DNA from: Chloroflexota bacterium
GTDB lineage: Bacteria; Chloroflexota; Ktedonobacteria; Ktedonobacterales; Ktedonobacteraceae
Assembly: GCA_005881495.1 (NCBI GenBank)
Contig: VBHI01000308.1
Location: 1-55,160 of the forward strand
DNA length: 55,160 nt
Direction of reading: 5' to 3'
Within the stretch, counting starts at the first letter, position 1, and each line of letters begins with the position of its first letter. A program made the translations under genes and the position numbers. The notes under the pieces are model-generated. The model saw nothing but the letters and a program-made list of their open reading frames with translations. It made no database searches and was not told where the DNA came from. Below are positions 3,701 to 50,837 of the stretch, in pieces.

Positions 3701-4465
3701 ATGTTACGAGACAGTCTCATACAGACAATTACAGCGGGGGTGTTGCGGAAGTTCTTCGAGATGCATACCCATCTTCGTCCAGCAACCAGAGCGCGCAAGC
3801 AAGCAGCAGTCGCGCGTTTTCTAACCTGGGCCGAGCAACAAGAGTTGCTGACCGCGAACCCGATGCGCAAGATCGACCGGGTGAAACTCGATCCCCCGCA
3901 GCCACGTGGCGTGGAGCGCGACCAGATCGAACGCATTTTCAAGGCCATCCCTGCCGAGCATTTGCGAGACCGACTCTTCTTCCGTTTGCTCGCGGAGACC
4001 GGTCTGCGAGTCAGCGAGGGGCTTTCCTTGTATGTGGAGGATCTTGACCTCTCACTCGACAATGAGCACCTGACCATCGTGGGGAAAGGTGGCAAGAGGC
4101 GAACGATCTTGCTCGACGATTCGCGCCTGGTGCAGCAGCTCCGGACCTATCTGAAAAGGATGGGTTACAAACATGGGCCGCTGTTTCGGGCGGAAAAGAA
4201 CGGGCGTGGAGGGCCATTGCGCTACCAGTCGATGCAGGAGCGCTGGGACCACTACTGCTCGCAGGCAGATGTCGCCTGCACGCTCCATCAATTGCGGCAT
4301 TCGCATGCGACTGAACTGATCAATGGTGGGGTGAGCTTGCCGACCATTCGCAAGCGGCTGGGGCATAAAAATCTGCAAACGACCTTACGCTATGCTGAGC
4401 AATCCGATCAAGCTACTGATGCAGAGGTACGAGTTTGGCGTCGCCACCAGAATCGAGAGAGCTAA
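3701..4465 (+). CDS. Tyrosine recombinase (site-specific integrase), N-terminally shortened
   Basis: The catalytic domain is complete: Arg in 'ETGLRVSE', the 'HQLRHSHA' box with His-x-x-Arg-x-x-His pattern, 'LGHKNLQTT' and the nucleophilic Tyr in 'TLRYAEQ'. Such enzymes cut and rejoin DNA through a 3'-phosphotyrosine. The N-terminal SAM-like core-binding domain is only about half its usual size: the first recognisable segment is 'LRKFFEMHTHLRPATRARKQ'. The chosen ATG (3701) has no Shine-Dalgarno sequence, and the frame stays open upstream to about 3515, where it overlaps the transposase start on the other strand. This suggests that the 5' part was lost when the transposon arrived. Possibly inactive; 254 residues from this start. 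Confidence 0.7.
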   Translation: MLRDSLIQTITAGVLRKFFEMHTHLRPATRARKQAAVARFLTWAEQQELLTANPMRKIDRVKLDPPQPRGVERDQIERIFKAIPAEHLRDRLFFRLLAETGLRVSEGLSLYVEDLDLSLDNEHLTIVGKGGKRRTILLDDSRLVQQLRTYLKRMGYKHGPLFRAEKNGRGGPLRYQSMQERWDHYCSQADVACTLHQLRHSHATELINGGVSLPTIRKRLGHKNLQTTLRYAEQSDQATDAEVRVWRRHQNRES

Positions 4466-4515
4466 AACGTTTCTTCACATGAAGAGGCTGAGCTAGGATA
4501 CGTGCAAAAATCGCC

Positions 4516-4823
4516 AGGTTCCCTTTCCTCGCTCCTTTCGTGAACTGCTCGCGCTGCACATGGAACAGATGCGAGCGAAAGGGGTGATCTACCTGTTCGA
4601 GTCTGTACGCAAGCACAAGTACACAGATCGGGGCGTGCGCAAAATGCTGGCCCGTTACGCGGCTCAAGCAGGGATTACGCGCTCGATGTCTCCCCACAAA
4701 TGGCGGCACTTTCTCTTTACCTGGCTCAAAAAGGAGGGTATCGATGACGCCTTGATCCAACCGTACTCTGGACATGCGACGCGCCAAGAGCTTCCGGTCT
4801 ATTCTCGGCTCTCGCCTTTCTGA
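4516..4823 (+). pseudogene. Second tyrosine recombinase, C-terminal remnant
   Basis: An open frame from about 4516 encodes '[18 protein letters not shown]', 'YLFES', '[16 protein letters not shown]', '[20 protein letters not shown]' and '[16 protein letters not shown]', which is the C-terminal half of a tyrosine recombinase including the His-x-x-Arg-His box, the Gly-His and the final Tyr. The upstream half with the first catalytic Arg is absent, and the frame is closed by a TAG near 4494. An ATG at 4560 has no ribosome site. Not expected to be active. With the previous gene it forms a small graveyard of recombinases. Confidence 0.75.
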
Positions 4824-36228: not shown

Positions 36229-36284
36229 ACAATGCGTTGAAACAGCGCTAAGCTGTCTGTCCCATGAGAAAGGAACATGATTTC

Positions 36285-37415
36285 ATGCATCATCACGATC
36301 ACCACCAGGATACTCCCAATGCCCATCATCACGAGCTAAGCCAGAGCGATTACCTGAGTGGAGCGCAAATTATTCCGCGGCGAGTTCATGCTAATATGAC
36401 GGTCGCGGAACTGATAGATCAGCAATTCCAGGCGTATAATAGTGCGCGATTGAATGAGGCGGCGCGCCTCTATGCCCAGGAGATGTTGGACCCTGAGAAG
36501 GATGTGACCATTGGTCTGACGATGGCAGGTGCCCTGACGCCCGCTGGCCTGGGGGGCTGCGTTATCACGTTAATGGAGCATGGCTTCGTTGATTTTATCA
36601 TCAGCACGGGCGCCAACCTCTATCATGATATGCATCACGCGCTGGCGATGACACTGCACCGGGGCGATTTCCGCCTGGACGATACGAAGCTGCAGGAAGA
36701 AGGGGTCATCCGCATCTATGACATTCTCTTCAAAGACAGCGTGCTCCTGGACACCGATGCTTTTGTACGTGAGTGCCTGAAAAGCTTGCCGAACAGGCCG
36801 ATTGCAACCTCGGAACTGCACCACCACCTGGGCACCCAGTTGCTCAAAGCCGGGGTCAATCCTGAGTATTCTTTACTGGCCCAGGCAGCACGCTGGAACG
36901 TTCCCATTTATACCTCCTCACCAGGAGACTCGTCGATTGGGATGAACGTTGCACGCAACGCCCTGGATGGCAGCCTGTTGATGCTCGATCCGCTGGCCGA
37001 TGTTAACGAGACCACTGCGATTGTTCACCATGCTACGCGCAATGGCGTCATTATTCTTGGCGGTGGCAGCCCGAAGAATTTCTATTTGCAGACGCAGCCG
37101 CAGCTCTGGGAGGTCCTCGGCATCCACAAAGGGGGGCATGACTATTTTGTGCAGATCACCGCTGATGCTCCCCATTGGGGCGGACTTTCAGGAGCAACAC
37201 CTTCGGAGGCTGTTTCATGGGGCAAGATCAAACCAGACCAATTGAGCAGCACAGTGGTAATTTACGGCGACTCGACAATTGCTCTACCGTTAATTACCGC
37301 GTACGCTGTGACAAAGGCCAGGCCGCGCCAGCGAAGAGAGCTCTTTGCCAGGCGCGAGCAGTTACTAGAAGAACTGAAACAGGCTTATGCTGCAGGAAAA
37401 GAGATACGGCCATAG
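36285..37415 (+). CDS. Deoxyhypusine synthase-family protein
   Basis: Start at 36285 because AAAGGA lies about ten bases before it; an ATG seven codons earlier has none. The 376-residue product opens with a His-rich tail ('MHHHDHHQDTPNAHHH') and then follows the DHS fold: 'GLTMAGALTPAGLGGCVITLMEHGFVDFIISTGANLYHDMH', 'TSSPGDSSIGMNVA', 'VIILGGGSPKNF', 'HDYFVQITADAPHWGGLSGATPSEAVSWGKI' with the catalytic Lys in 'SWGKI'. DHS is NAD-dependent and moves a butylamine group from spermidine; in archaea and eukaryotes to eIF5A, while bacterial homologues are thought to make homospermidine or act on other amines. No eIF5A exists in bacteria, so a small-molecule acceptor is likely. speD and speB follow, supporting a polyamine role. 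Confidence 0.88.
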   Translation: MHHHDHHQDTPNAHHHELSQSDYLSGAQIIPRRVHANMTVAELIDQQFQAYNSARLNEAARLYAQEMLDPEKDVTIGLTMAGALTPAGLGGCVITLMEHGFVDFIISTGANLYHDMHHALAMTLHRGDFRLDDTKLQEEGVIRIYDILFKDSVLLDTDAFVRECLKSLPNRPIATSELHHHLGTQLLKAGVNPEYSLLAQAARWNVPIYTSSPGDSSIGMNVARNALDGSLLMLDPLADVNETTAIVHHATRNGVIILGGGSPKNFYLQTQPQLWEVLGIHKGGHDYFVQITADAPHWGGLSGATPSEAVSWGKIKPDQLSSTVVIYGDSTIALPLITAYAVTKARPRQRRELFARREQLLEELKQAYAAGKEIRP

Positions 37416-37421
37416 CAGGCT

Positions 37422-37481
37422 TTCCACCTAATGCTCATATGTTTCCAATTTAGGTGGAATGTCTGCTTGCTTTTAGGTGGA
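37422..37481. promoter_or_regulatory. Inverted/direct repeat TTAGGTGGA downstream of the DHS-like gene
   Basis: TTCCACCTAA (37422-37431) pairs with TTAGGTGGAA (37450-37459), and a third direct copy TTAGGTGGA stands at 37473-37481. Could be the DHS terminator (no T-run) or an operator upstream of the speD promoter. Confidence 0.4.
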
Positions 37482-37531
37482 TATGCACTGGTTATTAGAT
37501 AAAAACATCGAGCACATACTTCTCATTAGCT

Positions 37532-37561
37532 TGACAACCTAATGTATAATGACATATAATG
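37532..37561 (+). promoter_or_regulatory. Near-consensus sigma-70 promoter of speD-speB
   Basis: TTGACA (37532-37537), 18-base spacer, TATAAT (37556-37561). Both hexamers are perfect. The spacer contains another TATAAT-like copy because ATAATGACAT is repeated. Confidence 0.8.
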
Positions 37562-37566
37562 ACATA

Positions 37567-37590
37567 CGGGGTCAAAAAAATGACGCCGTT
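37567..37590 (+). promoter_or_regulatory. 5'-UTR hairpin before speD
   Basis: ACGG-G-GTCA, loop of six A, TGAC-G-CCGT: eight base pairs around one G-G mismatch. It starts a few bases after the predicted transcription start, about 30 bases before the ribosome site GAGGAGG, so it may stabilise the 5' end or regulate speD. Confidence 0.45.
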
Positions 37591-37622
37591 TGTGTTACTA
37601 GAGCTAAGAGGAGGTAAAATCG

Positions 37623-38054
37623 ATGCTTGTCCATTTAATGTTGGAGCTGTACGGTTGCGACCGGGAGCTGCTGTCTAACGAGGCATTGGTACGTCGTGCC
37701 CTGGATGAATATCCGGCCCGTGTCGGTATGGAGAAAGTCAGTCCAGTTCACCTGTACCATATTGAAACATCCAATCCATTGGATGCTGGTCTTTCGGGCT
37801 TTGTCGTCATTGCCCAGAGCCACACTAGTTTGCATGCCTGGCCTGAATATGGCGAAGTCGATATCGACATCTGTTCCTGCAAAGAATTTAGCCAGGAAGA
37901 GGCCATCGCCTTTGCCAGGGAGATGTTCCAAACAGATGATGTAGAGGCGCATTTCGTGGTACGCGGCAACCGTTCCCTGCGCCCGGAGACGCCTGATCCT
38001 GTACGCTACGAGGCAGCTATAGCTGAGCGTAGTGCAAGAATGGCGGTGCGCTAA
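37623..38054 (+). CDS. speD: S-adenosylmethionine decarboxylase proenzyme, unusual Gln-Ser cleavage site
   Basis: 143 residues with GAGGAGG eight bases before the ATG. It is a class 1b (Thermotoga-type) AdoMet decarboxylase: 'LELYGCDRELL' at the start and the active patch 'GFVVIAQSHTSLHAWPEYGEVDIDICSC'. Ser66 should become the pyruvoyl group after self-cleavage; His71 and Cys86 match the catalytic His68/Cys83 of the Thermotoga enzyme. Unusual: the residue before the Ser is Gln65, where the family almost always has Glu. The enzyme supplies decarboxylated AdoMet, the aminopropyl donor for spermidine. No aminopropyltransferase (speE) is in the window. speB follows by 19 bases. Confidence 0.9.
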   Translation: MLVHLMLELYGCDRELLSNEALVRRALDEYPARVGMEKVSPVHLYHIETSNPLDAGLSGFVVIAQSHTSLHAWPEYGEVDIDICSCKEFSQEEAIAFAREMFQTDDVEAHFVVRGNRSLRPETPDPVRYEAAIAERSARMAVR

Positions 38055-38073
38055 AAAGAAGGAGTACGATCTT

Positions 38074-38949
38074 ATGACTGATTCGCCTGTAACCCAGTTT
38101 GGTGCGCCAGATGCGCCTTACTGCGACCCATCAACCGCTCGCGTAACGATTATCCCGGCCCCGCTTGAATATAGCGTGTGCTATATGAAAGGCACTGAAC
38201 TTGGGCCACAGGCGATTCTTGATGCCTCCAGCCAGGTGGAATTGTATGACGAGGAACTCGATTGCTGCCCCATCGAGGTAGGCGTCTATACACGTCCGGC
38301 ATTAGACTACCACGACATGGATCATGCCACCACGCTTCAGGCCACCGGTGACGCTGTACGTGAAGTACTTGAACGCGGACAACTCCCCTTTACGCTAGGC
38401 GGAGAACACTCCCTCTCCGCTCCTCCTATAGCTGCTGTACGAGACTATTTTCCAGACCTGACGGTTGTACACATCGATGCTCACGGCGACCTGCGCGATG
38501 AATACGAAGGAACGCCCCTCTCACATGCTTCTATTGAGAGACGGGTTGTAGATATGGGTATTCCTTTGACCGAGATTGGCATTCGCAGCTTTAGCCCTGA
38601 AGAGGCCGAATTTATGAAAACTCGCCCCAATGTGGCGGTGGTATGGGGCTACCAATTGGCAAAGGGAACGGCGGTTATTCCCTGGGATCGCCTGAGCAAA
38701 CATACGTATGTCACGATCGACCTCGACGCCCTTGATCCCAGCGAGATGCCAGCGGTGGGTACGCCTGAACCAGGCGGATTACACTGGTACCAGTTACTCG
38801 AACTCATTCGAGAAATCTGTCACCGCACTACTGTTGTCGGGATGGATGTAGTCGAACTCTGCCCGATGGAAGGGCAGACCCGCGCTGATTTTCTGGCCGC
38901 GAAGCTGGTGTATAAGATGATCGCTTATCGATACTGCGATAAAGGGTGA
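38074..38949 (+). CDS. speB: Agmatinase/ureohydrolase family protein
   Basis: Start ATG 38074 has AAGGAG about nine bases upstream. The 291-residue product has all ureohydrolase manganese motifs: 'FTLGGEHSLSAPPIAA' (His), 'VVHIDAHGDLRDEYEGTPLSHASIERR' (Asp-Ala-His-x-Asp) and 'YVTIDLDALDPSEMPAVGTPEPGGLHW' (Asp-x-Asp). It removes urea from agmatine to make putrescine, or from aminopropylagmatine to make spermidine, in the cytosol; which one cannot be told. It is in one operon with speD under the strong promoter at 37532. Confidence 0.92.
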   Translation: MTDSPVTQFGAPDAPYCDPSTARVTIIPAPLEYSVCYMKGTELGPQAILDASSQVELYDEELDCCPIEVGVYTRPALDYHDMDHATTLQATGDAVREVLERGQLPFTLGGEHSLSAPPIAAVRDYFPDLTVVHIDAHGDLRDEYEGTPLSHASIERRVVDMGIPLTEIGIRSFSPEEAEFMKTRPNVAVVWGYQLAKGTAVIPWDRLSKHTYVTIDLDALDPSEMPAVGTPEPGGLHWYQLLELIREICHRTTVVGMDVVELCPMEGQTRADFLAAKLVYKMIAYRYCDKG

Positions 38950-41805: not shown

Positions 41806-41985
41806 ATGCATATTAGAGCGGTTTTGGGGCCTATTGCTCCTGAAGATTTAGGCATCACGCTGGGTCATGAGCATTTATTGAGCAATATTGTGCCGCGGCT
41901 GCGTCACGCAGGAGTATCTCAAGAAGAATTGGACACGATTTTTATTGAGACGCCGAAGCGATTGTTGACACTACAGGGTGACTAA
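41806..41985 (+). pseudogene. 59-residue in-frame mini-gene: phosphotriesterase-family ends joined, middle missing
   Basis: The frame begins like a phosphotriesterase ('MHIRAVLGPIAPEDLGITLGHEHLL', with the metal-binding His-x-His of strand 1 at His21/His23) and ends like one ('VPRLRHAGVSQEELDTIFIETPKRLLTL'), but the roughly 260 residues between, with the rest of the metal site, are absent. The join is in frame and the stop codon overlaps the next start (TAATG), so translation can still feed the radical SAM gene. It is most likely a deleted gene; a small translated protein that keeps coupling is possible. It has no convincing ribosome site. Confidence 0.65.
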
Positions 41986-42929
41986 TGCTTTATCCTAGCT
42001 ATCTCCATCTGTATGAAACAGGCGAGCTGGCTGAGCGCGCAGCTAGAGCCTGGGAAATCTTACGTAGTTGCACAATCTGTCCACAGAATTGTCGCTGTAA
42101 TCGCATTGCGGGGAAAACAGGGGTGTGTCGTTCAGGGACAGAGGCCATTGTTGCATCCTGGAATGTGCACCGCCGCGAAGAACCCCCGATAAGTGGGACA
42201 CGGGGGGCAGGGTCGATTTTCTTTGGCTACTGCCAGGCCCGCTGCACATATTGCCAGAATTTCTCGTTAAGCCAGGGGGGGCTTGGCCACCGCATTGGGC
42301 CAGAACGGTTGGCGGATATGATGCTCTACCTGCAAAGGAAGCGTTGTCATAACCTGGATCTTGTGACCCCCACTCATTTTGTGCCCCAGATACTGGCAGC
42401 ACTGGTTGTAGCCTGTGGCAAGGGGTTGACACTGCCCATTGTTTATAATTGTGCCGGCTATGAAAACCTGGAGACTCTCAGGCTGCTGGACGGTGTTGTC
42501 GATATATATCTCCCTGATGCCAAGTACGCCGATAATATAAACGCGCTGCGCACCTCGAAGATGCCGCACTATGTCGATCATAACCAGATTTCGCTGCGTG
42601 AAATGCTCCGGCAGGTCGGCCCGCTCCAACTCGACGAAGATGGTATCGCACGGCGTGGATTGCTCATACGGCACCTTGTGATGCCCGAGAATATAGCGGG
42701 AACGCGCGAGGTATTGCGATGGATAGCGGAAGAATTAGGTCCCGGTACACCTGTCAGCCTGATGGATCAATATTTTCCAGCCTGGAAAGCCGTGAATGAC
42801 CCGGTACTCAACCGTCGTCTCACCTGGAGCGAGTACAAGGCAGCGATCGATGCACTGGAAGAATTTCAATTGGACGCGGGTTACGTCCAGGAAGACCTGA
42901 TGGAGCTGGATACGACGTCTCTAGTGTAG
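41985..42929 (+). CDS. Radical SAM protein of the PflA-like (AmmeMemoRadiSam/YgiQ-adjacent) group
   Basis: 314 residues. N-terminal Cys cluster 'CTICPQNCRCNRIAGKTGVC', then the radical SAM triad in 'FFGYCQARCTYCQNFSLS' (C-x3-C-x2-C, about residues 82-95), and later 'LTLPIVYNCAGYENLETL', 'VDIYLPDAKYAD', 'LLIRHLVMPENIAGTREVLRWIA'. This is the 'putative pyruvate formate-lyase activating enzyme' family; it binds a [4Fe-4S] cluster and cleaves AdoMet to a radical, but the true target is unknown, since no pyruvate formate-lyase is nearby. Start ATG overlaps the stop of the phosphotriesterase mini-gene (TAATG), with AGGGTG as ribosome site. Confidence 0.88.
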   Translation: MLYPSYLHLYETGELAERAARAWEILRSCTICPQNCRCNRIAGKTGVCRSGTEAIVASWNVHRREEPPISGTRGAGSIFFGYCQARCTYCQNFSLSQGGLGHRIGPERLADMMLYLQRKRCHNLDLVTPTHFVPQILAALVVACGKGLTLPIVYNCAGYENLETLRLLDGVVDIYLPDAKYADNINALRTSKMPHYVDHNQISLREMLRQVGPLQLDEDGIARRGLLIRHLVMPENIAGTREVLRWIAEELGPGTPVSLMDQYFPAWKAVNDPVLNRRLTWSEYKAAIDALEEFQLDAGYVQEDLMELDTTSLV

Positions 42930-43128: not shown

Positions 43129-44047
43129 ATGAAAGACACGGCCACTTTGAGCCGCCTATTTACCAATATCCAGGTTGACCTCGATCAGGTGGACAGCACG
43201 TTTGAGGAGAGAGCGACCTCTGGCCTCGACATCCTCAATACCGCTTCAATGCATGCGCTTGGTTCACCTGGCAAGCGACTAAGAACGGCTCTCACATTAC
43301 TTTCGGGCAAGATGAAAACGTACCGTTGTGGATAATGCGACGACCAGGCGTGGCAATCCAACCGTCAACGCGCTGTGGGGGAACAATATCGCGATTCTGC
43401 TCGGTGATTACTACTTTGCCAAGACTGCTGGCTTGATTGCCGATATTAACGACAATCGTATTGATCATCTCTTCTCGGATACTGTGGCAACGGTCTGCGA
43501 AGGCACCATTATGGAGATGATGACAGCCGGACGTATCGACCTGACCATCGAGAGTTACTATGAGAAAATCAACCACAAGACTGCCTGCCTGATTGCTGCT
43601 TGTTGCAAAGGCGGAGCGATTGTCAGCCAGGCCGCGGACGAGGAAATCGAGCTTCTCTACACATATGGTTTGAACCTGGGTATCGCATTTCAAATCATTG
43701 ATGACATCCTGGATTATACCGAAGACCAGGCGACGATTGGAAAACCTGCCGGTAATGACCTGCGCCAGGGCATGGTCACATTGCCTTTGATCTATGCATT
43801 ACAGGAGCAGCCACGCAATGGTCAGTATCAAGTGGTACATAGACTACTAAATGGCACATCGCAACGGGAGGAAGACCTTCTCTCGGTAATCAATTGGGTC
43901 AATGAAGGCCAGGGGGTAGAACGTTCACGGGTAGATGCCTATAACTTTGCGAACAAAGCGCAAGCAGCATTATATCATTTTCCCGTCTCACAAAATCGTG
44001 AAGTGTTGGATCAGTTGATCGATTTCGTGGTCGCACGCAAACACTAG
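43129..44047 (+). pseudogene. Polyprenyl diphosphate synthase broken by an internal frameshifting deletion (first Asp-rich motif lost)
   Basis: Frame 1 (43129-43335) encodes 'LDILNTASMHALGSPGKRLRTALTLLSGKMKTY' and ends after 'RCG'. Frame 2 resumes with 'VVDNATTRRGNPTVNALWGNNIAILLGDYYFAKTA' and continues to 44047 with 'GLNLGIAFQIIDDILDYTED' (second Asp-rich motif) and 'GKPAGNDLRQGMVTLPLIYAL'. Between 'KTY' and 'VDNATTRRG' a trans-isoprenyl synthase needs about 24 residues including the Asp-Asp-x-x-Asp motif that binds the allylic diphosphate; here they are gone. As written the product cannot work. The intact enzyme would make a C30-C40 prenyl chain for a quinone. GGAG precedes the ATG by eight bases. 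Confidence 0.85.
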
Positions 44048-46470: not shown

Positions 46471-47280
46471 ATGTACCGTATGCTCGCCATCGACCTGGAT
46501 GGCACATTACTTACCCCCATGCCACACAAAAACATCACACCCCGAACACATGATGTATTATATCAAGCCGCACAATCTGGTGTAGCCATTGTCATTGCGA
46601 CAGGACAGACGGTGCAGGTGCTACGCGCCATCTGCGGAGATTTGCCCCTGTCGGCCCCACAGATCATCGAGAACGGGGCGCTGGTAGTAGATATACAGCG
46701 CGGGACAGTGCTGCATGAGAAGCTGATACCGTCTGAACACATTTTACCAACACTTGATATACTGCGAACCTTCGGACTCTATCGCGCATACCATACCTAC
46801 GAGCGCGTGTACGTCGATACCAACACGCCACGGGCGCGCAACTGGTATCGACCACCTGTGCCGCCAGTGGTGGAAATAGAGGATGTGGCGAGCCTGTATC
46901 CGAGGAAGTGCATTAAAGTTGCTGGCATCGGTGAAGAGAGTACTTTACGAGAGAAGCGCAGAGAACTTGAACGTATCTTTACCGGAAAACTCTATGTGAC
47001 GCAGTCTTCTTTTGATCTGTTGGAGTTTCTTCATCCAGCAGTCTCAAAGGTCAATGCTCTGAAGACTATCGCGATCGATTTAGGCATCGCGCCAGCAGAG
47101 ATCGTGGCAATAGGCGATAACCACAACGATATCGGCATGATCCGTTACGCCGGGCTTGGTATCGCTATGGGCAACGCACATGATGAGGTGAAGGCTGCAG
47201 CTGATTTTGTGACCTTGAGCAACACCGAAGAAGGTGTGGCTGTAGTGATTGAAAAGCTGATGCAAGACGGAGAGATATGA
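46471..47280 (+). CDS. HAD-superfamily phosphatase (Cof type)
   Basis: ATG 46471 with AGGAG eight bases upstream. 269 residues with the HAD motifs: 'MLAIDLDGTLL' (nucleophile Asp), 'VIATGQTVQVLRAI' (motif II, Thr), Lys in 'SKVNALKTIAIDLG' (motif III) and 'IVAIGDNHNDIGMIRYAGLGIAMGNA' (motif IV), plus the C2 cap between. Such Cof-type enzymes hydrolyse sugar phosphates or phosphorylated cofactors in the cytosol. It stands 98 bases before a glycosyltransferase gene of the same direction, so it may supply or remove a phosphate in that pathway. Confidence 0.9.
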   Translation: MYRMLAIDLDGTLLTPMPHKNITPRTHDVLYQAAQSGVAIVIATGQTVQVLRAICGDLPLSAPQIIENGALVVDIQRGTVLHEKLIPSEHILPTLDILRTFGLYRAYHTYERVYVDTNTPRARNWYRPPVPPVVEIEDVASLYPRKCIKVAGIGEESTLREKRRELERIFTGKLYVTQSSFDLLEFLHPAVSKVNALKTIAIDLGIAPAEIVAIGDNHNDIGMIRYAGLGIAMGNAHDEVKAAADFVTLSNTEEGVAVVIEKLMQDGEI

Positions 47281-47378
47281 TGGATTCCGCTGCTGTGTAA
47301 ATTTTGTCGGTCCAATAGCGTGTATAAGACAGTATCATTGCGCCGACTATTTTGTGTAGCTGAGGAGTTGTATCTTTT

Positions 47379-48092
47379 ATGTCAAGTGAACAAGTTGCTA
47401 TTGTCATACCGGCCCTGAATGAAGAAGAAGCCATACGCCATTTACTACCAGAAATTCCCCCCGACACTGCGACATGGATTATTGTGGCCGATAACGGGAG
47501 TACCGATAATACGGCGGAGGTGGCCCATTCTCTAGGCGCCCTCGTCTCCAGCGAGCCGATTCGTGGTTATGGACGCAATTGCCTGGCAGGCTTCAAGATG
47601 GCCTGTACGTTAGGGGCCGACATTGTTGTTTTTTTGGATGGAGATGGGAGCGATGATCCCGCCGACCTGCCCATGATGCTGGCTCCGCTCAGCGAAGGAC
47701 GCGCGGACCTGGTGGTTGGTTCGCGCGTGAGTGACCGTTCAGAGCGTGGCGCGGTCTCGCCACAGGCGCGGTTGGGTAACTGGCTTGTCAGCCGCTTGAT
47801 CCGCATATTGTATGGCGTGCGTCTCTCAGACATAGGGTCGTTTCGTGTCGTGCGCTGCTCCGCATTAGACGCGCTGAAGATGAATGAAATGACCTTTGGC
47901 TGGCCGGTTGAGATGTTGGTGAAGGCTGCACGAGCGCGGTATCGCATTGTTGAATTGCCTCATCACTACCGCCATCGCAGTCACGGCCATTCAAAAGTAG
48001 CTGGTACGATCTCTGGCAGCCTCAAGGCCGCATATTTCATGTTGCGCACAACAGTGCGCTATGCGGGAGCACGAGGTGGCACACATGCTTGA
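47379..48092 (+). CDS. Family 2 glycosyltransferase (dolichol-phosphate mannosyltransferase-like)
   Basis: 237 residues. GT-A fold with 'VAIVIPALNEEEAI' at the start, nucleotide-sugar site 'ADNGSTDNT', metal-binding 'VVFLDGDGSDDP' (about residues 85-95), 'LVVGSRV', and acceptor-side 'SDIGSFRVVRCSALD' and 'YRHRSHGHSKVAGT'. No membrane helices. It should move a sugar from a nucleotide donor to a lipid phosphate or small acceptor. The stop overlaps the next start (ATG 48085), so the two are translationally coupled. With the DUF2064 protein and a radical SAM gene it recalls gene pairs TIGR04283/TIGR04282 described in arsenosugar-like pathways. Confidence 0.88.
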   Translation: MSSEQVAIVIPALNEEEAIRHLLPEIPPDTATWIIVADNGSTDNTAEVAHSLGALVSSEPIRGYGRNCLAGFKMACTLGADIVVFLDGDGSDDPADLPMMLAPLSEGRADLVVGSRVSDRSERGAVSPQARLGNWLVSRLIRILYGVRLSDIGSFRVVRCSALDALKMNEMTFGWPVEMLVKAARARYRIVELPHHYRHRSHGHSKVAGTISGSLKAAYFMLRTTVRYAGARGGTHA

Positions 48093-48804
48093 TACGGCAC
48101 TTGTCTCTATGGCGCGCTACCCGGAGGCTGGAAAAACCAAAACACGTTTAGCTGATGCGATCGGCCATGAAGAGGCTATGGCTCTCTACCAGGCTTTTCT
48201 CACCGACCTTGCTCAGCGTTTTGCCGGTGGTGACTTTCACTTCCACTGGGCGTACACGCCAGCAGAGAAGGACTTCGCTGCCTTTATATCTACCCTTACG
48301 CCGGCGATTGCTCACTCTATGTGCTATTTCCCGCAAGAGGGACCAGACCTGGGCGCACGCCTGCTCTCTGCCTTCCAATGGACGTATGAACGAGCATTTC
48401 AAAAGACGATCGTCATCGGTTCGGACTCGCCGCACATCAGCCCGGAAATTATTGGCGATGCGCGGGCGGCACTGGACGAGGCCGATGTCGTACTGGGGCC
48501 TGCCGAGGATGGCGGGTACTATCTTCTTGCGATGCGCCAACCTCACGATGTCTTCAGCGGCATTCCAATGAGTACCAGCGTGGTAACGCAAATGACAATT
48601 GAACTGGCGCAGCGTCAAGGTCTCGCCATTCGCCTGCTGGGGCCGCTTTTTGACATTGATGAATTACCCGACCTGCTACGTTTAGCGCATTTACTGGAGG
48701 CAAATAGCTCTCTGGCACCTGCTACCGCTGCATACCTGGCTAGAAGAAGGGCATTACATGACCTTGACACCCACAGTTACGCTGCCACGTTCAATCTACA
48801 TTGA
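48085..48804 (+). CDS. DUF2064 / TIGR04282-type nucleotidyl- or glycosyltransferase
   Basis: ATG 48085 (GAGGTGG just upstream), overlapping the GT2 stop by eight bases. 239 residues: 'ALVSMARYPEAGKTKTRLADAIG' (NTP-transferase-like start with Pro-x-x-Gly-x-x-Lys-Thr-Arg), 'QEGPDLGARLLSAFQWTYERAF', 'IVIGSDSPHISPEIIGDA' (Asp-Ser-Pro) and 'VLGPAEDGGYYLLAMRQP'. The family is related to CofC/MobA-like nucleotidyltransferases and is usually paired with a GT2 enzyme, as here. Exact substrate unknown. Its 3' end overlaps the next gene by 47 bases. Confidence 0.88.
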   Translation: MLDTALVSMARYPEAGKTKTRLADAIGHEEAMALYQAFLTDLAQRFAGGDFHFHWAYTPAEKDFAAFISTLTPAIAHSMCYFPQEGPDLGARLLSAFQWTYERAFQKTIVIGSDSPHISPEIIGDARAALDEADVVLGPAEDGGYYLLAMRQPHDVFSGIPMSTSVVTQMTIELAQRQGLAIRLLGPLFDIDELPDLLRLAHLLEANSSLAPATAAYLARRRALHDLDTHSYAATFNLH

Positions 48805-49762
48805 GCCGACGAGTCGTTGTAACGAGCTCTGCCAACAATGTCCGCGAACGCTGCTTTCAAGAGAGGATGATCGTGATCTCAGCTATGAGAAATTTTGCTT
48901 CATTGTCGATCAATTTCCTGTGCTGGAGCGCGTGGTGCTACACGGCCTGGGCGAACCATTGCTCAACAAAGATCTGCCGCGTATGATCGCATATCTGAAA
49001 GAGCGGGGAACCTATGTGCTCTTTAACTCCAATGGCATTCTCCTGAACGCGAAACGCGGGCAGGCTTTGATTGACGCGGGGCTTGACGAATTGCGACTCT
49101 CCATGGATGGAGCTTCGCGCGAAACCTATACATTGGTACGAGGCGTGGACGCTTTCGACAAAATCTGGCGCAATGTTAAAGCTTTTATCGCGATGCAACG
49201 AGAGCAGGATGCGAGCAACCCTGCTCTATCGATCTGGTTTACTGCCATGCGCGAGAACTTGCATGAACTACCTCACCTGATCGACCTGGCCAGTGAGCAC
49301 GGCGTACGAGAAATCTACCTGCAACGCCTCGTCTATTTCGAACAGGGACTGGCCCATTCAAAGCAGTCCCTGTTCCGCCGCTCAAATCGCGAGGAGCTGG
49401 CACTGATCAGGCGCTGCGAGGAGGTGTGCCAGGAACGAGGGATGCTTTTTAAAGCCTCAGGATCGGCCAGCCCAACAGAGAGCATCGTGCGGGATTTTGG
49501 AGAGCGTCCCTGGTCCGGCTGCCAACGACCCTATACATTGACCTATATCACATCCAGTGGCAATGTGCTTTCCTGTTGTTTCGCGCCCTTTGGGCATAAA
49601 AGCGCAAAGGAGTACAGGGAGGAGCGCGTACTGGGCAATGTATTTCAGGAGTCAATTGCTGAAATCTGGCGTGGGGAGCGTTATGAGAGCTTCCGACGCG
49701 CCTTTGAGAGCGACCATCCTGCGCGGCACTGCGCGCAATGCGGCACGAATTGGAGCTATTAG
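48758..49762 (+). CDS. Radical SAM/SPASM-domain protein
   Basis: ATG 48758 with AGAAGGG about seven bases upstream, overlapping the previous gene by 47 bases. 334 residues: radical SAM triad in 'PTSRCNELCQQCPRT' (C-x3-C-x2-C, about residues 21-28), 'VLHGLGEPLLNKDL', 'TYVLFNSNGILL', 'DELRLSMDGASRETY', and a C-terminal SPASM-like Cys set ('SGCQRPYTLTYITSSGNVLSCCF', 'HCAQCGTNWS') for an auxiliary iron-sulfur cluster. It should start radical chemistry on a peptide or small molecule. The overlap with the GT2/DUF2064 pair shows a single pathway; the product is unknown. A 16-bp hairpin follows. Confidence 0.9.
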   Translation: MTLTPTVTLPRSIYIEPTSRCNELCQQCPRTLLSREDDRDLSYEKFCFIVDQFPVLERVVLHGLGEPLLNKDLPRMIAYLKERGTYVLFNSNGILLNAKRGQALIDAGLDELRLSMDGASRETYTLVRGVDAFDKIWRNVKAFIAMQREQDASNPALSIWFTAMRENLHELPHLIDLASEHGVREIYLQRLVYFEQGLAHSKQSLFRRSNREELALIRRCEEVCQERGMLFKASGSASPTESIVRDFGERPWSGCQRPYTLTYITSSGNVLSCCFAPFGHKSAKEYREERVLGNVFQESIAEIWRGERYESFRRAFESDHPARHCAQCGTNWSY

Positions 49763-49768
49763 ACATCC

Positions 49769-49813
49769 AGACAAGATGCGAGGGCGCTGGCCCAGTACCC
49801 TCGCATCTTGTCT
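49769..49813. terminator. 16-bp perfect stem terminator of the GT2-DUF2064-rSAM operon
   Basis: AGACAAGATGCGAGGG (49769-49784), 13-base loop, CCCTCGCATCTTGTCT (49798-49813), followed by CTTGTTA. It lies seven bases after the radical SAM stop codon. Confidence 0.8.
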
Positions 49814-49817
49814 CTTG

Positions 49818-49945
49818 TTATGCAAGAGAGGCAATCCACTCTTTTAAAACTGATACGAGTTCTCCGGGTTCTTCCATGAAAACCATGTGGCTTGAGTGCT
49901 CAAAGATGTGCAGCCGTGCGTTGTGTGGCATCAAAGAGCTCGAAA
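49818..49945 (-). pseudogene. Alpha/beta-hydrolase C-terminal remnant
   Basis: The frame ending at 49818 encodes 'LMPHNARLHIFEHSSHMVFMEEPGELVSVLKEWIASL', the last strand-turn-helix of a proline iminopeptidase-like alpha/beta hydrolase with its catalytic His in 'HSSHM'. Everything upstream (nucleophile Ser, Asp) is missing; instead, the KGG gene terminator begins at about 49952. The stump has no start of its own. Confidence 0.7.
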
Positions 49946-49995: not shown

Positions 49996-50193
49996 CTATG
50001 CCTGCGCGGTGTTCTTTGGGCGACGGCGGCTGATAGAACCACCCTTGCGTCCAGCAGCCTGAGCCTCTTCACTTGTCCATTTGTGTGCGGTTCCCTGGGA
50101 ATGGGCAGCTTTACCGCCCTTACTAGCAATTTCGCGTTTTTTTTCTGGACTCATTGACGCAAATCCACGGCCACGACCTTTTTGTGATTGCAC
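49996..50193 (-). CDS. KGG-repeat stress protein (YciG/Con-10-like)
   Basis: 65 residues, AAAGGAGAATG shortly before the ATG. Two characteristic motifs of the stress-induced KGG family are present: 'GFASMSPEKKREIASKGGKAAHSQG' and 'WTSEEAQAAGRKGGSISRR'. Such small, basic, hydrophilic proteins are common in spore-formers and are induced under general stress or sporulation; they are thought to bind nucleic acid or act as hydrophilic protectants, not firmly known. Its own terminator lies right behind it. The region 50194-50441 upstream shows nothing else. Confidence 0.88.
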   Translation of the reverse strand: MQSQKGRGRGFASMSPEKKREIASKGGKAAHSQGTAHKWTSEEAQAAGRKGGSISRRRPKNTAQA

Positions 50194-50441: not shown

Positions 50442-50837
50442 TCAGCCATCCGCCAGAGTACCCGGTTGTGCCAGCCTTTTTGTCAAGTTTACGATCTCAT
50501 CAACAGCAAAGGGCTTCTGAAGCAGGGCGACATGCAGATCTTGTAGCTCTACAGTGTCGTGAATGGTTGCGGCAGTTGTTAAGATAATGGGAAGGGCGGC
50601 AAATAATGGATTATCACGAAGGATACGGATTACTTCAGTACCAGGCATTGAACCGGCTAAACGCCAATCTACGATAAGTAGGTCAATTGGTAGGCCCTGC
50701 TCCTGCTCCGGTTGTAATAAAGCATCCAGGCAATCTTTGGCTGTGGGGTAGATAGTGATGGCGTAGCCCTCGCCTTGAAATACAAGAGTAAGCATTTCCT
50801 GAATGGCGATGTCATCTTCGAGCAAACCTATTTTCAT
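50442..50837 (-). CDS. Single-domain response regulator (CheY-like)
   Basis: 131 residues, AAGGGGAAAAG before the ATG. A complete receiver: acidic pair in 'IGLLEDDIAIQEML', phospho-acceptor Asp in 'IDLLIVDWRLAGSMPG', Thr in 'PIILTTAATIHD' and Lys in 'VALLQKPFAVDE'. There is no output domain, so it works by protein contact, like Spo0F or CheY. No histidine kinase is adjacent; its partner is elsewhere. Contrast with the pseudo-receiver at 18433, which lacks the Asp. Confidence 0.93.
   Translation of the reverse strand: MKIGLLEDDIAIQEMLTLVFQGEGYAITIYPTAKDCLDALLQPEQEQGLPIDLLIVDWRLAGSMPGTEVIRILRDNPLFAALPIILTTAATIHDTVELQDLHVALLQKPFAVDEIVNLTKRLAQPGTLADG

Follow-up and report, generated by a model that had tools for sequence, protein, structure and literature searches.

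What could be produced by an operon in which a family 2 glycosyltransferase (GT2), a DUF2064 protein and a radical S-adenosylmethionine (SAM) protein, here denoted rSAM1, are encoded by overlapping genes? The question is raised by a stretch of 55,160 nucleotides, hereinafter the window, that covers positions 1 to 55,160 of contig VBHI01000308.1 in the genome of a bacterium of the family Ktedonobacteraceae, phylum Chloroflexota (GenBank assembly GCA_005881495.1). The families of the individual proteins are known, as is, judging by the names of the respective models, the combination of radical SAM, GT2 and DUF2064 genes in arsenosugar loci. Comparison of this locus with its relatives makes it nearly certain that the genes form a real unit; our tentative interpretation is that, in Chloroflexota, the trio could stand at the center of a gene set for the synthesis of a cell-surface glycoconjugate containing a radically modified sugar.

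Phyletic distribution and co-occurrence of the genes

A scan of genome contigs yielded 27 loci, of which 15 are in Ktedonobacteria, at 73-87% identity, eight bear the names Anaerolineae or Chloroflexi (one, uncultured bacterium), at 43-48% identity, and four are distant. With the 40 loci collected later, the total is 67, from which nine duplicates were removed, leaving 58 loci in addition to the window (individual loci and genomes are referred to by numbers starting with L and G, respectively). In 55 of these 59 loci, the window included, rSAM1 scores above 300 bits; L024-L027 contain distant radical SAM genes with a top score of 105 bits against the rSAM1 profile. Many of the loci are short contigs, and L084, L085 and L087 represent near-identical strains. 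A search that started from a divergent member brought up, among the 120 relatives listed, most of them nameless, the names Caldilineales, Roseiflexaceae, Kouleothrix and Anaerolineales.

In a phylum-wide sample of 151 genomes, nine contain the gene for rSAM1, as do 26 of 47 Ktedonobacteria and 21 of 298 Anaerolineae, the latter two sets containing one genome per species, of unstated completeness. Each genome has a single match above the threshold, except for G186, where the gene is in two pieces; it is also in pieces at L012 and L087. Among the 54 rSAM1 loci examined other than the window, 15, all from Ktedonobacteria, share the order GT2-DUF2064-rSAM1, with DUF2064 at most 75 bases from rSAM1 and GT2 next before DUF2064. 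Of the 25 Ktedonobacteria genomes that possess both rSAM1 and GT2, 23 have these genes no more than 8 kb apart, and the other two have them on different contigs.

The presence of rSAM1 is closely followed by that of several other genes (the p values below are from Fisher tests that ignore common ancestry). In Ktedonobacteria, GT2 is found in 25 of the 26 genomes with rSAM1 vs 1 of the 21 genomes without it (p = 4e-11), and DUF2064 in 25/26 vs 3/21 (p = 5e-9). In this class, the trio is joined by two further genes, those for the membrane glycosyltransferase GT87 (25/26 vs 8/21, p = 2e-5, leaving out G169, with a score of 109 bits, from the 34 genomes with matches) and for a membrane-anchored molybdenum (Mo) enzyme of the sulfite oxidase family. 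The ortholog of the latter is present in 23/26 vs 0/21 genomes (p = 2e-10) at a threshold of >590 bits that was chosen after the gap between 599.6 and 370.8 bits had been seen, the partial matches in G180 and G181 (351 and 355 bits), possibly orthologs, being counted as absent; a lower-scoring paralog occurs in Ktedonobacteria that lack rSAM1. The exceptions are as follows: G174, G180 and G181 have rSAM1 with no Mo-enzyme ortholog over the threshold; in G181, where rSAM1 is truncated by the contig end, there is no GT87 match either; and neither GT2 nor DUF2064 exceeds the threshold in G093, where, however, rSAM1 is located on a 6.9-kb contig that opens with a weak DUF2064 piece. Conversely, among the genomes without rSAM1, DUF2064 is present in G169, G179 and G187, the first of which also has GT2.

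In Anaerolineae, GT2 is present in 18/21 genomes with rSAM1 vs 19/277 without it (p = 6e-16), whereas the Mo enzyme, counted as any match at E 1e-50, is present in 6/21 vs 54/277 (p = 0.39). Thus, GT2 accompanies rSAM1 in either class, but the Mo enzyme does so only in Ktedonobacteria and was accordingly rejected as a universal partner. Of the 19 GT2 loci in Anaerolineae that lack rSAM1, six were fetched (L138-L143), and in all six DUF2064 adjoins GT2, indicating that GT2 and DUF2064 form a general module to which rSAM1 is added. Co-occurrence in two classes indicates that these genes are a working unit rather than a chance operon.

Organization of the operon

The preliminary description of the window, made from the nucleotide sequence, had given the limits and families of four open reading frames (ORFs), all of which are borne out by translation and family scans (Table 1); the overlaps that it claimed, 8 bases between GT2 and DUF2064 and 47 bases between DUF2064 and rSAM1, are exact when computed from the coordinates. 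The HAD protein, encoded 98 bases before GT2, scores 167.7 bits against TIGR00099 (cut-off 137). It had been counted as part of the operon, which did not hold up: among the 18 comparable loci of the Ktedonobacteria type, those where the sequence before GT2 extends over 1.2 kb or more, it is present in three (the window, L001 and L018). The HAD gene was accordingly rejected as an operon member and is a local neighbor in the lineage of the window, outside the conserved unit.

Table 1. Features of the rSAM1 operon region in the window
Feature	Coordinates	Strand	Evidence
Cof-type HAD-IIB phosphatase	46471..47280	+	TIGR00099, PF08282
GT2 glycosyltransferase, 237 amino acids	47379..48092	+	PF00535
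DUF2064 protein, 239 amino acids, CofC/nucleotide-sugar-transferase-like	48085..48804	+	PF09837, TIGR04282
Radical SAM protein rSAM1, 334 amino acids, CX3CX2C	48758..49762	+	PF04055, PF13186
Strong hairpin 3' of the operon, terminator-like without U-run	49770..49812	+	folding

The 43-nt hairpin behind rSAM1 is followed by a second, small one (49813-49827), and the two jointly reach -37.9 kcal/mol (z = -8.1 against 200 shuffles, segment 49760-49830). Because the hairpin has no U-run and is absent from the list of the terminator scan, it is a plausible transcription terminator but not a textbook one.

The GT2 and DUF2064 proteins

Among proteins with solved structures, the nearest relatives of GT2 are ArnC and dolichol-phosphate mannose synthase, followed by glucosyl-3-phosphoglycerate synthase. 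Together with AglJ, the first two represent the polyprenyl-phosphate sugar synthases, which GT2 resembles most closely among its matches; however, its score against the AglJ model TIGR04182 (127.9 bits) is under the cut-off (325). GT2 is thus a predicted synthase, closest to enzymes that act on polyprenyl or dolichyl phosphate. Within the DGDGS motif, D87, D89, G90 and S91 are invariant across seven aligned sequences. The DUF2064 protein exceeds the cut-off of TIGR04282 (169.6 vs 134 bits), matches PF09837 and aligns with PDB 3cgx at 106 bits.

The radical SAM protein

In rSAM1, the Pfam domains PF04055 (48.8 bits, cut-off 29.5) and PF13186 (55.9 bits, cut-off 21.5) are both recognized, and the three cysteines of the CX3CX2C motif are present in all 53 aligned homologs. 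The C-terminal tail includes five conserved cysteines that are kept by every homolog covering that region; 51 of the 53 homologs have five or six cysteines, and the remaining two have three and none. In SPASM enzymes, two auxiliary clusters require seven cysteines, too many for the rSAM1 tail, whose five conserved residues would fit a single auxiliary cluster in a twitch-like arrangement. The number of cysteines agrees with the twitch type exemplified by BtrN and MoaA, the end of the tail being modelled at low confidence. Thus, of the SPASM-like tail proposed in the preliminary description, the PF13186 match stands, but the cysteines suffice for one cluster.

Profile scans placed rSAM1 below the cut-offs of all of its best 25 NCBIfam models. 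The closest named families are TIGR04311, putative metalloenzyme maturases (149.4 bits, cut-off 400), and TIGR04317, tungsten cofactor oxidoreductase maturases (143.2 bits, cut-off 380); in six other members of the rSAM1 lineage, the best model scores 119-150 bits, again well below these two cut-offs. The name "tungsten cofactor oxidoreductase maturase" is carried by two NCBI records among the 120 rSAM1 homologs listed. Radical SAM proteins of the SPASM group are not foreign to this class of bacteria, given that a pqqA-E locus (pqq, pyrroloquinoline quinone) is reported for Tengunoibacter, a member of the Ktedonobacteria (PMC13289182); unlike PqqE, however, rSAM1 scores only 76.9 bits against the PqqE model (cut-off 381), and this identity was rejected, rSAM1 being a different gene by score.

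A predicted structure of rSAM1 (model m2edff2f1b5ae) has a confidence (pLDDT) of 79.6. In fold comparisons, rSAM1 shows 17-24% identity to the sugar-acting enzymes DesII, BlsE and BtrN, and enzymes that modify ribosomally synthesized peptides (RiPP enzymes) match the fold equally well or nearly so; SuiB, SkfB and other RiPP enzymes are among the top matches, SuiB being first in the order given by Foldseek.

GT87 and the molybdenum enzyme

In several Ktedonobacteria loci, L005, L006, L008 and L098 among them, the operon continues into the GT87 and Mo-enzyme genes, and in Ktedonosporobacter rubrisoli (L022/L096) these two genes lie between DUF2064 and rSAM1. A profile search found neither in the window; in G016, the genome with the locus closest to the window, both are on contigs other than that of the trio. 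The distance between the GT87 and Mo-enzyme genes is below 2 kb in 16 of the 23 genomes with both, including the pairs that lie beside the trio; in the remaining seven genomes, the two genes are separated by a longer distance on one contig in four (2.4-2.7 kb in two of these, where rSAM1 is located between them) and are on separate contigs in three.

When five GT87 proteins were scanned, four matched PF09594 (45.1, 53.5, 29.5 and 30.6 bits; gathering score 25) and the fifth, the candidate at 10236-11696 of L013, had no Pfam match. Homologs of GT87 with scores of 407-425 bits are also encoded in six Ktedonobacteria that have no rSAM1, GT2 or DUF2064 over the threshold (G067, G164, G085, G076, G125 and G148); in the first two of these genomes (L144 and L145, respectively), the gene is located beside an ABC-transporter-like gene set.

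The Mo enzyme contains a PF00174 domain with the invariant cysteine. In the copy from L005, four hydrophobic segments, delineated with a simple hydropathy window, precede a twin-arginine (RR) motif that is followed by the catalytic domain, and the protein is probably exported via the twin-arginine translocation (Tat) pathway. The PF00174 domain and the invariant cysteine are shared with the sulfite dehydrogenases SoxC, SorA and SorT (137 bits against SoxC). In contrast to these, the Mo enzyme does not reach the cut-off of any of the five models listed, and its catalytic domain is preceded by the N-terminal membrane part and the RR motif.

Several other genes occur next to this pair. A DoxX-like gene adjoins GT87 at L132, L133 and L137, and a fusion protein of about 415 amino acids, putatively of glutaredoxin-type and reductase-like parts (a label that comes from our reading of the sequence and not from a family scan), is encoded beside GT87 at L129 or beside the Mo enzyme at L132, L133 and L137. 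A protein of about 140 amino acids, the L005 copy of which (4116-4541; the only one scanned) has no Pfam or NCBIfam match, is encoded near the trio or the GT87 and Mo-enzyme genes at eight Ktedonobacteria loci (L005, L006, L008, L086, L093, L094, L095 and L098).

Gene sets of the Anaerolineae

In Anaerolineae, the same genes are dispersed over several kb and have varying companions, namely a second radical SAM gene (rSAM2) and genes for NUDIX, DoxX-like, DsrE and acyl-CoA dehydrogenase proteins as well as, in L117 and L118, a TusA-like protein. The scores of rSAM2 against the Rv1681 model (cut-off 380) are 293 bits at L023 and 266 bits at L002, and that of the acyl-CoA dehydrogenase against the Rv1679 model is 402 bits at L016 (cut-off 600). 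The rSAM2 and/or Rv1679-like genes accompany rSAM1 at L013/L116, L023, L015, L016, L118 and other Anaerolineae loci; rSAM2 is also found at 4206-4991 of L002, which belongs to a metagenome-assembled genome of Ktedonobacterales. This set resembles one that the models name after Mycobacterium genes; searches of open-licence PubMed Central yielded no paper joining Rv1681 with Rv1679 or with radical SAM.

Other genes in the window

Downstream of the operon, genes for a KGG-motif stress protein (49996-50193) and a small response regulator (50442-50837) are encoded on the minus strand. Upstream, at a distance of 2-4 kb, a polyprenyl synthetase gene (43129-43335 and 43328-44047) looks broken: the reading frame differs between its N-terminal part, which was assigned by eye, and its C-terminal part, and the intervening segment is apparently missing, which could reflect either a real lesion or a sequencing error. 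Another radical SAM-like protein is encoded at 41985-42929 (PF04055, 22.6 bits, under the gathering score), and a polyamine-type cluster at 36264-38949 consists of genes of the deoxyhypusine synthase family, S-adenosylmethionine decarboxylase and the arginase family.

Alternative explanations

Loci named for arsenosugar synthesis by the models TIGR04167, TIGR04282 and TIGR04283 likewise combine radical SAM, DUF2064 and GT2 genes, and the DUF2064 protein passes TIGR04282, which bears the NCBI name arsenosugar biosynthesis glycosyltransferase. However, ArsS (TIGR04167), which is reported to adenosylate arsenic (PMC12159101), exceeds its cut-off of 300 bits in none of the 47 Ktedonobacteria but does so in one of 14 control genomes; the ArsS model is not among the best 25 NCBIfam matches of rSAM1, the lowest of which scores 38 bits; and GT2 reaches 37.8 bits against the arsenosugar GT2 model TIGR04283 (cut-off 182). 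Moreover, the trio is accompanied by GT87 and, within Ktedonobacteria, by the Mo enzyme. No ArsM or ArsR was found among the 14 window genes scanned against Pfam, a scan without ArsM- or ArsR-specific models, and no paper joining arsenosugar, glycosyltransferase, gene cluster and radical SAM was found in open-licence PubMed Central. Accordingly, an arsenosugar-type pathway with an ArsS-like enzyme is hardly credible and was rejected, which vindicates the earlier assertion that the operon is not of this type; orthology of rSAM1 to ArsS or to a maturase of known product, named beforehand as what would refute the preliminary interpretation, is not found when judged by model cut-offs. Chance adjacency of functionally unrelated genes held together by synteny only would have a parallel in the KGG and response regulator genes, which also lie downstream of the trio in 6 of the 58 loci (L012, L084, L085, L087, L092 and L097) for no known functional reason. 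It appears very improbable nonetheless, considering that the set is maintained in two classes despite differences in gene order and genomic surroundings, and that its genes mostly are present or absent together.

The PF13186 match and the prominence of SuiB, SkfB and other RiPP enzymes among the fold matches would be compatible with modification by rSAM1 of a ribosomal peptide that is glycosylated later. Comparison of 416 small ORFs located in the vicinity of the core genes at 55 loci, however, detected no recurrent precursor: the largest groups comprise three loci, in all cases the near-identical L084, L085 and L087, and the other printed groups are pairs, one of them TusA-like; this leaves room for a precursor that is encoded at a distance or overlaps a longer ORF. 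In the rSAM1 of the window, the radical SAM cysteines start at residue 21 and the alignment with SuiB begins at about SuiB residue 89, leaving no room for a leader-binding domain; no N-terminal domain is present, and separate leader-recognition proteins were not covered by a dedicated model. In the Anaerolineae proteins, translation from the first start codon would add up to about 50 residues at the N-terminus. Against the models of peptide maturases, including PqqE and MftC, rSAM1 scores far under the cut-offs, and the peptide explanation is thus distinctly improbable. The lack of a precursor peptide recorded in the preliminary description is borne out across these loci, whereas its suggestion of a modified peptide loses ground, also in view of the very short sequence that precedes the radical SAM core. 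The strongest competing explanation, even if it too seems unlikely, holds that rSAM1 matures the co-occurring Mo enzyme or its pterin cofactor, the glycosyltransferases serving otherwise or decorating the Mo enzyme. It accounts for the nearest named families, TIGR04311 and TIGR04317, and the two homologs that bear the name of the latter, as well as for the match in distribution between rSAM1 and the Mo-enzyme ortholog, as opposed to its paralog, in Ktedonobacteria, but not for the Anaerolineae, where the Mo enzyme does not track rSAM1, or for the steady presence of GT2 in both classes. Furthermore, the cut-offs of the two maturase models are missed widely, also by the six other members, and the aldehyde ferredoxin oxidoreductase (PF01314) that is expected with TIGR04317 has no match in any of the 47 Ktedonobacteria, while the same search was positive in 5 of 14 control genomes, so that maturation of such an oxidoreductase is disfavored. 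No paper joining tungsten cofactor oxidoreductase with radical SAM was found in open-licence PubMed Central.

A possible pathway for a modified cell-surface sugar

Synthesis of a surface glycoconjugate with a radically modified sugar is the interpretation that we consider most likely, on the strength of what is known of the respective families. Those GT2 enzymes that group with ArnC and dolichol-phosphate mannose synthase attach sugars to polyprenyl phosphate, and the resulting polyprenyl-linked donors are used at the outer face of the membrane by GT-C enzymes, GT87 among them; CofC-like proteins transfer nucleotidyl groups, and enzymes of the sulfite oxidase family catalyze two-electron redox reactions. 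Among radical SAM enzymes, BtrN is reported to oxidize a cyclitol, and BlsE to decarboxylate a glucuronosyl nucleoside (PMC3715490). By analogy with DesII, BlsE and BtrN, rSAM1, with SAM and one auxiliary cluster, would oxidize, deaminate or decarboxylate a sugar, a nucleotide-sugar or a nucleoside, although its identity to these enzymes is low and RiPP enzymes fit the fold about equally. The DUF2064 protein would provide the activated, nucleoside diphosphate-linked sugar, GT2 would place the sugar on polyprenyl phosphate, and GT87, encoded beside the trio or elsewhere, would transfer it at the outer face. In Ktedonobacteria only, the membrane-anchored and probably Tat-exported Mo enzyme might carry out a final redox step outside the cell. 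What has been observed is the gene order, the protein families, the conservation of motifs, the co-occurrence of GT2, DUF2064, rSAM1 and the Mo-enzyme ortholog in Ktedonobacteria, the lack of ArsS over the cut-off and of aldehyde oxidoreductase matches in the 47 genomes of this class, and the lack of recurrent precursor peptides nearby; the substrate, the order of the steps, the polyprenyl carrier, the location and the product are inferred. Of the two kinds of product envisaged in the preliminary description, a glycosylated small molecule fares better, being strengthened by GT87 that lies beside the trio or co-occurs with it, and the modified peptide fares worse.

A more specific version, which is possible but rather doubtful, is that the product is a hitherto undescribed surface glycolipid or glycan, in which an unusual sugar made by rSAM1 would be loaded on polyprenyl phosphate, transferred by the GT-C enzyme and finished by redox or sulfur chemistry that could involve the Mo enzyme in Ktedonobacteria and rSAM2 together with DsrE, TusA-like and DoxX-like proteins in Anaerolineae. 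Searches of open-licence papers in PubMed Central yielded no account of the rSAM1 lineage, its link with GT87 and the Mo enzyme or its distribution, and no paper that joins DUF2064, glycosyltransferase and radical SAM; of the names TIGR04282, TIGR04283, TIGR04317, TIGR04311, DUF2064 and PF09837, only TIGR04282 came up, in two papers.

Two implications follow. Because none of the 47 Ktedonobacteria genomes encodes an ArsS over the cut-off, the arsenosugar label attached to DUF2064 is unsuitable for this class and should not be transferred to it. Beyond annotation, sugar transfer of the polyprenyl type appears to be tied to a radical SAM enzyme that is under the cut-off of every named family and that, within Ktedonobacteria, is also linked with a specific ortholog of the Mo enzyme.

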